From positions 186,001 through 250,000 of the forward strand of contig NZ_CP066802.1 in assembly GCF_016598775.1 (NCBI RefSeq): DNA of 64,000 nucleotides. The letters run 5' to 3'. Made by a program: the position numbers and the translations under genes. Below are positions 39,628 to 46,129 of the stretch, piece after piece. Position 1 is the first letter of the stretch; the number at the start of each line of letters is the position of its first letter. A model generated the notes under the pieces. The model worked only from the letters and a program-made list of their open reading frames with translations, did not search any database and was not told the origin of the DNA. This stretch comes from Actinomyces weissii (GTDB lineage Bacteria > Actinomycetota > Actinomycetes > Actinomycetales > Actinomycetaceae).

Positions 39628-40998
39628 CTAACCGGCAGCCGCCGAGGCCGGGTCCATGACTGCGGCCTCGAACACGGCCAGGCCGCTGCCCAGCTCCACC
39701 ACCCGCAGCACGAAGGGGTGGTCCACGAAGAAGTCCACCGGCCTGGTATCGGGCTCCAGCGGGGCGGCGAACTCCTTGACGCTTATCTCGGTAAGGGCGG
39801 CCCCGAGCGTCCCCGGCTCCAGGACCTGCAGGCGGACCTGCTGAACGGCCTGGTCCACCTCCAGGTTGTTGCCGATATGCGTCAGGTGGTTCAGCTCCAC
39901 CCCCAGCTGCCTCAGCTCGGCCAGGAGGTTTACGGCCTCGGTGCGCAGGTCCAGGCGGGGCAGGCGCAGGTTGACCTGCGACAACTGCGCCTCAGGGCCG
40001 CTGAGGGCCTCGGTGGCCTCCTGCCAGGTGTCCAGTGGCAAGGACCCTAGGCCGCCGGGCTCGTCCGGCAGGACCACGTCCAGTGCCAGGCCCGGCCCCT
40101 GCTGGCTCGGCGTGTAGGGCAGGCGCACCGCCCGCCACCCGGGGCCGGCTACCAGGGGCAGGCTGAGTGTGCCCGTCATAAGGTCCGCCTGGCTGAGGGA
40201 CCCGTCCAGGCGGTGGAAGTCCTGGCGCTTCTGGGTCTGTTCTCCCTCAAAGGGGCTTTCCCACCGGGCCGCTAGCAGCAGGGCGTTCTGTAGCACCAGC
40301 AGGTTGTTGCCAGTGACCTTGATACCGGACTTGTCGATAAGCCCACCGGTGTGCAAGCTGGCCCAGGCGTCCAGGGTCTCCTGCGCCTCCTGCACGGATA
40401 CCTGGCTCACCGTGGCCCCGTACCAGCTGCGCACGGCTTCCGTGTACTCCGTACGAACCAGCTGCTTAGTGCCTATCTGCACCAGGTTGTTGGCGATGTG
40501 CAGCAGGGGGGTGTCCGGGAGCACATCGGGCTTGAAGCTCTTCAGGGTCTCGGTGTCGGCGGTGTCCAGGCGTTGTAGGGCCTGCAGGGCGGCGTTCCAG
40601 CGGGTGTCCCGTTCATCTGCGCCTGCCTGCGTGTCCGTCCCGAGCAGCAGGGGGGCGACGCCGTCGCCAAGCCTGTCCGCCTGGGTGTAGAGCATGGCCA
40701 GGGTCAGGCTGGTGCCTGCCGGGCTCAGCAGGACGTTGCTCGTGCCTGACTTCCGCAGGCGGTGGGCCAGCTGCCGGGCGCTTAAGGCGCTGGAAGCCCG
40801 GGCGACGCTGCTTGCGGGGCCCGCCGTAGACGGCGCACCGGCGGGCCCTGCTGGCGCCGGGGGACTGCCAGCAGGTGAGGTGGAGCAGCCAGCCAGGGCC
40901 ACCAGCAGTCCGGAGGCGGCTAGTGCCTGGGAGGTGTGCAGGACCCGCCTGCGGCTGGGACTAGCTGGTCCAGGTGCCCCGAGGTCGTTTTCGCCCAT
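39628..40998 (-). CDS. Serpin-family lipoprotein 1
   Basis: A 456-residue secreted lipoprotein with the serpin fold. A signal peptide with an RRR pair ends in lipobox LAGC; a Pro/Ala/Ser linker follows. Serpin landmarks in order: 'NVLLSPAGTSLTLAMLY', 'LDAWASLHTGGLIDK', 'LVLQNALLLAARWESPF', 'LRLPRLDLRTEAVNLL' and 'FFVDHPFVLRVVELGSG'. The hinge of the reactive loop is degenerate ('EPGTLGAALTEIS'), with Gly at P12. Counting from P15 Gly puts P1 near a Phe, uncertain by a few residues. It may be a weak inhibitor or a non-inhibitory serpin. It is the paralogue of the gene at 41690. Confidence 0.88.
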   Translation of the reverse strand: MGENDLGAPGPASPSRRRVLHTSQALAASGLLVALAGCSTSPAGSPPAPAGPAGAPSTAGPASSVARASSALSARQLAHRLRKSGTSNVLLSPAGTSLTLAMLYTQADRLGDGVAPLLLGTDTQAGADERDTRWNAALQALQRLDTADTETLKSFKPDVLPDTPLLHIANNLVQIGTKQLVRTEYTEAVRSWYGATVSQVSVQEAQETLDAWASLHTGGLIDKSGIKVTGNNLLVLQNALLLAARWESPFEGEQTQKRQDFHRLDGSLSQADLMTGTLSLPLVAGPGWRAVRLPYTPSQQGPGLALDVVLPDEPGGLGSLPLDTWQEATEALSGPEAQLSQVNLRLPRLDLRTEAVNLLAELRQLGVELNHLTHIGNNLEVDQAVQQVRLQVLEPGTLGAALTEISVKEFAAPLEPDTRPVDFFVDHPFVLRVVELGSGLAVFEAAVMDPASAAAG

Positions 40999-41084
40999 GT
41001 GCCCAGTATGCCGGGGCCGGCCTGGTGGGTGCGGGAAGCTAGTGGCCTGATCTTAGGGGCGGGTACGGTGGCCCGCCGTCGGGC

Positions 41085-41534
41085 TCATCGCGCGGCGTAC
41101 CGGTACACGTTGGTCTCGCGCAGCTCGAAGCCGCAGCGCTGGTAGAGGCGGTTAGCGGCCTCACGGGAGGGTCGGGAGGTCAGGTCCACCGTGCGCGCAC
41201 CCAGCTGCGCGGCGTGCTCCACCGCCGCCTGCACCAGGGCTGCCCCTGCCCCCTGGCCGCGGGCAGCCGAGTCGACGACGACGTCCTCGATCCAGGCGCG
41301 CAGCCCCGTAGGGATCTTGAAGGTGGCCAGGGTCAGCATCCCTAGTATCGGGCGCTGCCCCTGCTCGTCAGCGGTCTCCGGGCGGAACACGAACAAGAAG
41401 ACGCCCTCCTGGGCCACCAGCTCCGTGCACTGGGTGGAGGTCAGGGCCGGGGCGGAGCGGGACAGCTGGGGGATGAGGCGTGCCATGGCCTCGACCAGCT
41501 CAGGCGTAGAGCTGGTGAATAGCTCAACCGACAT
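41085..41534 (-). CDS. GNAT-family N-acetyltransferase
   Basis: A 149-residue acetyltransferase. The acetyl-CoA-binding motif A reads 'IEDVVVDSAARGQGAGAALV' and is followed by 'LTSRPSREAANRLYQRCGF', typical of GNAT enzymes acting on amino groups. CCAGGAGGAACC precedes the ATG at 41534; the longer upstream frame lacks a site. It lies between the two serpin genes on the same strand (gaps of 86 and 155 bp). A functional link to the serpins is not evident. Confidence 0.92.
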   Translation of the reverse strand: MSVELFTSSTPELVEAMARLIPQLSRSAPALTSTQCTELVAQEGVFLFVFRPETADEQGQRPILGMLTLATFKIPTGLRAWIEDVVVDSAARGQGAGAALVQAAVEHAAQLGARTVDLTSRPSREAANRLYQRCGFELRETNVYRYAAR

Positions 41535-41689
41535 GGTTCCTCCTGGAGGTCTCGGGGTGGTCACCTGCCGTGCCCGGCGTGCTCCGGGTCCGGTCAGGGA
41601 CGGCTGCTCAGGAACTGAGGCTACCGCGTGGGACCAGCACAGGCCGGGCAACCGTCCCGGCGTCGTGTGCGGGCTGCCAGGCGGTGCGC

Positions 41690-43090
41690 CTACAGGGCGG
41701 AGCGGGACGCCGGGTCCATGACCACGGCCTCGAACACGGGCATACCGGTGGCCGCGTCGACGATACGGGCCACGAACGGGTGGTCCACGAAGAACTCCAC
41801 CGGATCGCCAGCAGGGAGCGGGGCCGAGACCCCCACCTGCACCTCCGTCAGGGCAGCCGCCACCGTGCCCTCCTCGTCCACCACCAGGCGCGCCTGCTGC
41901 ACCGTCTGGTTGACCACCATCTCAGGCCCGATATGGTCCAGGCTCCCCAGCTCAACGTCCAGGGAGCTGAGCTCCTGCAGCAGGTCAGTGGCCTCCGTGG
42001 TCAGGTCCAGGCGAGGCAGGCGCAACCGTACCTCCGGGCCGCTGCGTCCCTGGCGCTCCAGCTCGGTCAAGGCGGCGGTGGCCTCGCTCCAGGCCTGCTC
42101 GCCCAGCTCGGTGGGGTGGACGGTCCTGCGGGGCAGCACCACGTCCAGCACCAGGCCCCTGCCCTCCTTAGCCGCAGGCCCGTAAGGCAGCCGCAGGGCC
42201 CGCCACTGCGTGTCCTCCACCAGCGGAAGGTGGGCGGTGGTGACCATCAGGTCAGCCCGGCTGCGCCCCTGTCCGGGCAGGTGGAAGACCTGGTCCTTCA
42301 GGGTCTCCGTAGGCCGGAAGGGCAGGGCCCAGCGGGCCGCCAGCAGCACGGCGCTCTGCAGCACCAGGCGCGTGCTGCCGTCCAGCTGTAGGCCTGAGCG
42401 GCGCACCAGTCCCCCTGTGTGGAGCCTGGCCCAGGCGTTGGTGGCCTCGGTGGCCTGGTCCAGCGCCACATAGCTGACGGCGGCGTCGTACCAGGTGCGC
42501 ACGGCGTCCACGTAGGACTGGTTGACCGTGTCCTTGGCGGAGCCCACCAGCAGCAGGTTACTGGCCAGGTGCAGCAGGGGCTGCTCCGGCAGCCGGTCGG
42601 GGTCAAAGTGCTGCAGCTCGCGCACCGAGAGGGTGTCAAAGCGCTGCAGGGCCAGCTGGGCGCGCCGCCACATGGTGTCCCGCGCCGTCGCGTCGTCGTC
42701 GGAACCGGCCCCCAGCAGATCCGCTACGCCCTGCCCCAGGGAGGGGGCCTGGGCGTACAGCATGGCCAGGGACAGGCTCAGTCCCGCCGGGCAGACCAGG
42801 GCGTTGGAGCCGGGGGAGGCCTCCAGCCGTTGCCGCAGCAGGCGGCTGCCCAGGCTGCTGGCAGCGTCCGCCGCCACCATAGAGGTGGTCACGTCCGCCG
42901 GAGGGCTGGTGGGGCGGACCTGCGAGGGCAGAGAGTCGATGGCGCGCAGGGCCCGGGTCGGCGAGCCGGGGGCCACCCCCTCCAGCGCCGCACAGCCACC
43001 TAGACCGGACAGCGCCGCGGCGGTGGCTAGGGCGGGCACCCCCAGGACGACGGAACGACGGCTGGGACAGGCAGGGACCGTAGCGCGCAT
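41690..43090 (-). CDS. Serpin-family lipoprotein 2, inhibitory-type hinge
   Basis: A 466-residue secreted lipoprotein. The start at 43090 gives a signal peptide with a twin Arg and lipobox LGGC; a longer frame to 43303 runs over the divergent gene. Serpin landmarks: 'NALVCPAGLSLSLAMLY', 'TNAWARLHTGGLVRR', 'LVLQSAVLLAARWALPF', 'VRLRLPRLDLTTEATD' and 'FFVDHPFVARIVDAATG'. The hinge 'EEGTVAAALTEVQ' fits the inhibitory consensus (E-E-G-T-x-A-A-A), so the loop should insert and trap a protease. By count P1 is near a Ser followed by Ala. It probably protects the cell surface from host or neighbour serine or cysteine proteases. Confidence 0.92.
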   Translation of the reverse strand: MRATVPACPSRRSVVLGVPALATAAALSGLGGCAALEGVAPGSPTRALRAIDSLPSQVRPTSPPADVTTSMVAADAASSLGSRLLRQRLEASPGSNALVCPAGLSLSLAMLYAQAPSLGQGVADLLGAGSDDDATARDTMWRRAQLALQRFDTLSVRELQHFDPDRLPEQPLLHLASNLLLVGSAKDTVNQSYVDAVRTWYDAAVSYVALDQATEATNAWARLHTGGLVRRSGLQLDGSTRLVLQSAVLLAARWALPFRPTETLKDQVFHLPGQGRSRADLMVTTAHLPLVEDTQWRALRLPYGPAAKEGRGLVLDVVLPRRTVHPTELGEQAWSEATAALTELERQGRSGPEVRLRLPRLDLTTEATDLLQELSSLDVELGSLDHIGPEMVVNQTVQQARLVVDEEGTVAAALTEVQVGVSAPLPAGDPVEFFVDHPFVARIVDAATGMPVFEAVVMDPASRSAL

Positions 43091-44787: not shown

Positions 44788-46129
44788 CTAGGCGCGGTGC
44801 AGCTCCACCAGCACCTCGGCGTGGTCGGTGTGCGGGAACATATCGAACAGCCGCGCCCGCACCACCCGCAGCGAGGGCATCGCCTCCAGGTCCGCCGCCA
44901 GGCTGGCCGGGTTGCAGGAGGAGTACAGCACCCGCTCCACCCCGGAGGCCTCCACGGCAGCGGCCAGCTCCCCGATCCCCCGGCGCGGCGGGTTGACCAC
45001 CAGCAGGTGCGGCGCACCACCCAGGGCCGACGCCGCCCCCGGGTCCAGCACGCGCGCGTCACCCGCCTCAAAGCGCACCAGCTCCGGCCCCAGGCCCATC
45101 AGGTGGGCGGAGTCGCGGGCGCCGTCGATCGCACTGGCCGACAGCTCCACCCCCAGCACCTGCCGCCCCGGCCCCGCCAGCGCCAGGGCGAAGCCGCCGA
45201 CGCCGCAGAACAGGTCCCACACCCGCAGCGGCCCGGCCCCGCCGTCGTCTGCAGGGGCCAGGGCCCACTGGCGCGCCTGGTCATAGAGGGCCTCGGCCAC
45301 CGCCGTGTTCGTCTGGAAGAAGGAGCGGGTCGGCAGCCACAGGGGCAGCTCCACCCCGCTACCCGGTAGGCGCAGCCGCATGAGCAGCCGGTCCCCGCCC
45401 GGCTCCTCAGTCAGCACCACCTCCTCAGGCCCCTCCAGCACCGCCTGGTGCACCGGCTGGATATTCGCGCTGGCCACCGCCAGGCCCGGCAGCACCCGCC
45501 GCAGCCCCGGCAGCGCCGCCCGCAGATCCTGCACGTGCCGGTGCGAGCGCAGCACGAAACGCACCATCAGGTCCCCGTCCGGCGAGGCCGTGACCAGCAG
45601 GTGCTTCAGCTCCCCCCCGACGCCGGGGCACGTCATAGGGCTCCAGCCCTAGGTGCCCCACGAAGTCAGCGAGCACCCCCAGCGCCGCGCGCAGCGCTGG
45701 CACGTGCAGGGGGCAGTCGCGCAGGTCCACGCCCGCGCCAGCGCCGTCGAGAATGCCCAGAACCGGCGCCCCCGCCCGCCCGGACACCACCATCTTGGCC
45801 TTGTTCCGGAAGGTCTGGGGGGCACTGGCCACGGGGGGAGCCCAGGACTCCACCGGCACCGGGTTGGCCCCGGTGGCCAGCAGCGCCGCTACCCGGTCCT
45901 GCTTGGCCGCCAGCTGTAGGGCCACCGGCAGGTCCAGGTGCGGGCAGGAGCGGCAGCGCCCGGCCGTGTGCCGCTCGCAGCGCAACGAGCCGTGAGCAGC
46001 TGCCTGCTCCGCCGTCGGCAGCGGGCTGTCGGCAGCGGTGGGGGTGTGACCGGCTGGTGCGGCACAGGCTCTTGCCGGGGCTGCTCGCAGGTGCGCCGGG
46101 TCCGAGGTCATGCCCCGATTCTGCTTCAC
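44788..46129 (-). pseudogene. rlmC: RlmC-type 23S rRNA (uracil-5-)-methyltransferase gene, frameshifted at a seven-G run
   Basis: The N-terminal part is read from a GTG at 46129: 'CERHTAGRCRSC' plus 'DLRDCPLHV' make the four-Cys iron-sulfur site, and 'FRNKAKMVVSGRAG' and 'LEPYDVPRRRG' match RlmC/RumB. The reading then fails, while the neighbouring frame continues exactly where expected: 'GELKHLLVTASPDGDLMVRF', the SAM motif 'WDLFCGVGGFALAL', 'VNPPRRGIG' and the catalytic Cys in 'VLYSSCNPASLA'. The frames meet at seven G (plus-strand C at 45612-45618); six would restore one 446-residue protein. It may be a true pseudogene, a slippage-controlled gene or a sequencing error. The start overlaps the upstream gene (GTGA). 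Confidence 0.88.

Follow-up and report, generated by a model that had tools for sequence, protein, structure and literature searches.

The serpin superfamily, which we take to be family I4 of MEROPS, includes miropin of Tannerella forsythia, a surface lipoprotein. According to a review, miropin inhibits neutrophil elastase, cathepsin G and trypsin as well as papain and bacterial proteases (PMC6718151). The Bifidobacterium longum serpin and the siropins are described in a 2021 phylogeny as serpins of commensals that target neutrophil elastase and other proteases of the host, and the same source quotes ExGTEAAAA as the consensus of the inhibitory hinge, P17-P9 (PMC8233489). Here we describe two serpin genes, A and B, in a stretch of 64,000 nucleotides of Actinomyces weissii (GCF_016598775.1, NZ_CP066802.1, forward strand 186,001-250,000; hereafter the window, from the start of which positions are counted). 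That A and B form an ordinary pair of bacterial, probably lipoprotein, serpins is well supported. Beyond this, sequence and predicted structure make it reasonably likely that both are surface-tethered suicide inhibitors with repeatedly retuned specificity.

Both open reading frames are intact (Table 1) and both products lie far above the curated cut-off of 27 bits of the Pfam Serpin profile (PF00079): A scores 133.7 bits (E 1.2e-38, profile positions 7-370 of 370) and B 138 bits (E 6e-40, positions 2-370 of 370). They are the sole PF00079 matches in this single-contig genome of 2.56 Mb. NCBIfam assigns no family to either. The predicted structures of A and B have the complete serpin fold including sheet A, with the loop modeled as a strand (P15-P4 in A, P15-P3 in B), and the best structural matches of both models are loop-cleaved serpins. 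A preliminary description of the sequence had proposed two serpin paralogues at this place, with structure prediction as a check, and both the gene calls and the predicted fold bear it out.

Serpins occur in 38 of the 49 genomes of the genus, many of which are drafts, in 77 of the 213 genomes of the family (genus included) and in 109 of the 394 genomes of a class sample; the genus survey that the preliminary description had suggested thus contradicts its premise that such proteins are uncommon, at least for this lineage. A collection of named genomes yielded two distant serpin loci. For comparison within the genus, 47 full-length open reading frames were used, representing 37 of the 38 serpin genomes; partial frames of two genomes (G029 and G013, the latter a further copy in pieces) and a fragment in G002 were left out. 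P1-P1' was placed by counting from P15 = Gly and is therefore a predicted position. Counted in this way, the P1 residues agree with those anticipated in the preliminary description (near Phe-Ala in A, Ser-Ala in B), and the hinge letters are as it quoted them (EPGTLGAA and EEGTVAAA). Both hinges are of the inhibitory type: EEGTVAAAL of B is the genus majority, while EPGTLGAAL of A differs from it at P16, P13 and P12. P9 is Leu in the two proteins alike, and at P13 Glu is found in neither. A retains Thr at P14, Gly at P12 (found there in three of the 47, A included) and Ala at P11-P10.

Across the 47 sequences, the hinge hardly changes. Gly at P15 and Thr at P14 are invariant, P12-P10 stay small, and Glu at P17 (46/47), Val at P13 (43/47) and Glu at P7 (46/47) are nearly so. 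The adjoining bait, P6-P1, falls within the 85th-96th percentiles for column entropy. Its last position, P1, is Met in 12 sequences, Ser in 10, Gly in seven, Leu in six, Thr in five, Ala in three, and Phe, Arg and Val in one each (46 sequences, plus one gap), and is followed by Ala at P1' in 39 of the 47. Pooled over 16 pairs chosen by hand from the tree, the ratio of nonsynonymous to synonymous substitution rates (dN/dS) comes to 0.09 in the hinge and 0.42 in the body, with 1.19 in P6-P1 and 0.92 in P6-P10', at a synonymous difference (pS) of 0.19-0.24 over the regions compared; one of these pairs is unresolved in the tree (G021/G001), three fall below starred support (G013b/G017b, G040/G031, G022/G020) and one consists of the two genes of a single genome (G034a/G034b). 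The nonsynonymous difference (pN) is 3.28 times as high in the reactive-center loop (RCL; P6-P1) as in the body (interval 2.25-4.43, bootstrap over pairs), and of 344 alignment windows the one starting at P5 has the highest pN and the one starting at P6 the next highest. P1 itself differs in seven of the 16 pairs, once by way of a gap. Overall, the genus serpins show a marked split: the trap is conserved, and the bait changes fast.

The lipoprotein signals reported in the preliminary description are present in both precursors, with a twin arginine (RR) ahead of the lipobox; the signal letters read ...PSRRRVLHTSQALAASGLLVALAGC in A and ...PSRRSVVLGVPALATAAALSGLGGC in B. The genome containing the window encodes TatC. 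By pattern match, RR plus lipobox recurs in 42 of the 47 genus serpins, and of the five others (G034a, G033b, G005b, G039, G017c) all except G039 are, by gene order, one of two adjacent copies. Tandem second copies lacking the lipobox were seen at L040:9105-10565 and L049:7124-8599. As a control, 30 substrate-binding-protein loci from seven genomes, two of them outside the family, were scored with nearly the same pattern. A lipobox was found in 25, and 21 of these 25 scored positive for RR as well, although at least one RR (L059) precedes the likely start; the other five loci are probably read in the wrong frame. A twin-arginine signal as a trait peculiar to serpins was thereby ruled out. Because the control lipoproteins also mostly carry RR, A and B are best seen as probable lipoproteins whose signal is of the kind common in this group.

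Table 1. Features of the serpin locus, with positions counted from the start of the window.
Feature	Position	Strand	Remarks
Serpin A	39628..40998	minus	456 amino acids, probable lipoprotein precursor; ATG to TAG, frame intact, without internal stops
Serpin B	41690..43090	minus	466 amino acids, probable lipoprotein precursor; ATG to TAG, frame intact
Signal of A	40885..40998	minus	Twin Arg, hydrophobic stretch, lipobox LAGC (Cys38); from translation
Signal of B	42992..43090	minus	Twin Arg, hydrophobic stretch, lipobox LGGC (Cys33); from translation
Hinge of A, P17-P7 EPGTLGAALTE	39787..39819	minus	P16 Pro and P13 Leu are found in no other of the 47
Hinge of B, P17-P7 EEGTVAAALTE	41843..41875	minus	At each position the most frequent letter of the 47
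Reactive loop of A, P6-P1 ISVKEF	39769..39786	minus	Predicted P1 Phe410, P1' Ala411; canonical counting
Reactive loop of B, P6-P1 VQVGVS	41825..41842	minus	Predicted P1 Ser422, P1' Ala423; canonical counting
GNAT-family acetyltransferase	41085..41534	minus	149 amino acids; PF00583 E 1.4e-16; ATG at 41534; genus core gene

The mechanism that we propose would run as follows. A and B would be lipid-anchored and face outward, and a serine (or cysteine) protease would cleave the exposed loop at P1-P1', upon which the hinge would draw the cut loop into sheet A and the protease would be trapped. Every lineage of the genus would hold the hinge and, for the most part, Ala at P1', while retuning the P6-P1 bait. 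B would be the conserved copy, kept at the corresponding position by the nearest species, and A an older, faster-evolving duplicate that offers a Phe bait rather than Ser. Enzymes similar to elastase, chymotrypsin or subtilisin would suit the P1 preferences, and the targets would most likely be proteases of these types favoring small or hydrophobic P1 residues, from a host or from neighboring bacteria, two sources that the present data do not separate. The proposal is built from sequence and prediction, namely fold family, signals, hinge conservation, loop hypervariability and gene history; inhibitory activity, lipidation, surface exposure and target class are what we infer from these. Loop change in an arms race has been described for animal serpins. 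A similar history across this genus, in which tethered serpins are duplicated and lost and change their bait fast under a near-frozen trap in an arms race against proteases of hosts or competitors, the Gln at P25 discussed below being a working shutter, is a tentative extension that we regard as somewhat doubtful.

At the locus, the order ClpB, TetR, GlpQ, NadE, HAD, GNAT, serpin, PAS protein and methyltransferase is common to the window and to the nearest species by serpin B (G044 and G002). In these two genomes the serpin at the locus is the B ortholog, and none stands between the HAD and GNAT genes. In the tree, A and the metagenomic protein P0121 are the sister of a B clade comprising G044, G002, P0006 and P0007, with support of 100/99 for the B clade and 100/97 for the joint grouping. 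On this topology the duplication predates the split within the B clade, and A was presumably lost in G044 and G002. The two copies also differ in how much they share with their relatives: A is 72% identical to P0121 and shares with it 260/351 residues outside P6-P10' and 0/6 at P6-P1, while B is 95% identical to P0002 and shares 429/450 and 6/6, respectively. A thus evolves faster than B. P0121 and P0002 probably stem from one contig, as the longest contig given for each is 6614 bases. Other serpin duplications in the genus appear to be separate events, and nine genus genomes contain members of a further, distal serpin clade (L039, L044-L046, L024-L026, L031, L042), which shows loop variety of its own. 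A fragment in G002 (G002:C8:192965-193537) was considered as a relic of A and ruled out, as it is closest to this distal clade. L036:8672-9532, in this A. bovis-like genome (G002:C8), is an internally deleted serpin frame of 287 amino acids closest to the distal clade, and at L024 (G013:C19) the serpin match lies inside an open frame of 1589 codons, either a fusion or a chance frame in GC-rich DNA.

The preliminary description mentioned the acetyltransferase gene that the two serpins flank. Its position between A and B is as described. G017 also has serpins on either side of the GNAT gene, as does G013, where one of the copies is in pieces. However, the gene (searched with query sequences starting at 41540, two codons upstream of the ATG) is present in every one of the 49 genus genomes, among them the 11 that lack serpins, and a functional partnership was dismissed on that ground. 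A scan for promoters and terminators gave a single promoter-like site, on the plus strand within B, and three sites resembling terminators, which is uninformative on an operon. Elsewhere in the window (44788-46129, minus strand), a uracil-5-methyltransferase is apparently split over the overlapping frames 45425-46129 and 44788-45636, with a PF05958 match in the tested part (44791-45636); by eye, this is a frameshift or an assembly error.

Several observations weigh against reading A and B as retuned inhibitors. P25, which we take to be the shutter residue His334 of alpha-1-antitrypsin, is Gln in all 47 genus serpins in place of the canonical His that conserpin and thermopin show in their alignments. 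The Pro at P16 of A has no counterpart among the 47. The bootstrap interval of dN/dS at P6-P1 (0.66-2.21 around 1.2) spans 1, so positive selection is not established, and by dN/dS the window starting at P6 ranks only sixth, the five above it being three from the body and two others from the loop. In a second set, 70 metagenomic clusters resembling P0045 (out of 166 proteins taken), P6, P5, P3 and P2 are fixed; P6-P1 ranks 22nd of 395 windows, and the six most variable ones have their first position in the stretch from P2 to P4'. The P6-P1 pattern can accordingly be generalized only to a limited extent. The loop of these clusters resembles that of the tandem copies without lipobox and varies mainly at P10, P4, P1, P3'-P5', P8' and P13'. 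Finally, in its account of some Streptomyces serpins, the 2021 phylogeny reads shutter and breach changes as possibly noninhibitory (PMC8233489).

The oddities of A could mean that it is a decaying or noninhibitory copy, for instance a substrate-like decoy, with B as the only working inhibitor. The two residues unique to its hinge (P16 Pro, P13 Leu), its lower identity to its relative P0121 and the absence of an A ortholog from the G044 and G002 loci all fit such a fate. Yet the frame is open without stops, P14 Thr, P12 Gly and P11-P10 Ala are kept, the predicted model draws the loop as in B, and the hinge of P0121 (EAGTVGAALTE) is less odd than that of A. If sites on which at least 44 of the other 46 sequences agree are taken as near-invariant, A deviates at 5 of its 58 such sites and B at 5 of its 60. 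By this count A is no more eroded than B, although the two have the highest values of the 47 (the next is four) and both stand at the divergent end. We judge such a fate of A unlikely. Of the preliminary description, which called this hinge degraded and suggested different targets or one decoy, the lipoprotein paralogues, the differing P1 residues, the fold and the unusual P16 and P13 hold; rarity, the acetyltransferase association and the degraded decoy are all weakened.

A further option, to which we give somewhat less credence, is that relaxed constraint alone shapes the loop, its sequence being irrelevant and the P1 differences carrying no target information. In its favor, the dN/dS at P6-P1 is not shown to exceed 1, P1 is the same in nine of the 15 pairs in which both members have a residue there, and six of the 16 pairs are identical across P6-P1. 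On the other hand, a freely drifting loop fits poorly with Ala at P1' and Glu at P7 being so widely kept on its two flanks, and with a gap within P6-P1 in just one of the 47 sequences. Acidic residues are also absent from P1 (0/46) as opposed to 35 of 188 cells at P5-P2 (Fisher p 0.0003; with distinct loops only, 0/40 versus 28/160, p 0.0017). These p values are optimistic, as related sequences are not independent, and P6 likewise lacks acidic residues (0/47).

It is improbable that the serpins instead protect the cell from its own secreted subtilisin-like proteases. The genome of the window does have one match to peptidase family S8 and one to S1, but S8 does not track serpins: counting profile matches regardless of secretion, and in many draft genomes, S8 is found in 32 of 38 serpin genomes, leaving six without a match, and in 10 of 11 serpin-free ones (Fisher p 1.0), so that own S8 proteases were dismissed as the evident target. 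S1 matches occur in all 49 genomes and cannot discriminate. Least probable of all is that the Gln shutter, present in 47/47 and comparable to the Streptomyces changes mentioned above, makes the whole genus subfamily noninhibitory, as a near-frozen hinge beside a hypervariable bait is hard to explain without loop insertion, and 20 more distant serpins (at most 38% identity to A) have Gln (16) or His (4) at P25 with hinges that by eye are of the inhibitory type in both groups.

It is the genus-wide pattern, more than the pair itself, that makes these serpins worth following. With probable lipoprotein serpins in most species and bait loops that often differ between relatives, the genus offers a natural panel for matching loops to proteases, which would help to tell whether such serpins are used against hosts, against neighbors or for the bacteria themselves. 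Among the matches listed in a literature search, no title concerned Actinomyces serpins or loop diversification in bacteria; subscription papers mostly lay outside this search, so absence is not implied.

The named close relatives of A and B are Actinomyces proteins. One serpin already annotated there, P0004 of A. bovis, is 68% identical to B and differs from it in having Arg at P1 and a locus without an A copy. In other genera of the family, Pfam serpin scores reach up to 301 bits compared to 134-138 bits for A and B. Among described systems, thermopin of Thermobifida fusca (PDB 1SNG) ranks second among the PDB sequence matches of A (E 7.3e-13) and differs from it in its His at P25. Miropin, known here from its description in the review, is alike in being a bacterial serpin, and PDB 5ncs, which the 2021 phylogeny names as miropin (PMC8233489), is among the PDB sequence matches. 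The Bifidobacterium longum serpin and the siropins, which that source places in Group T, are set beside A and B by description only. Compared with the bacterial members of the serpin superfamily, A and B are alike in their full-length family match, predicted fold and hinge with Gly at P15, Thr at P14 and small residues at P12-P10, and they stand apart in carrying Gln instead of His at P25.

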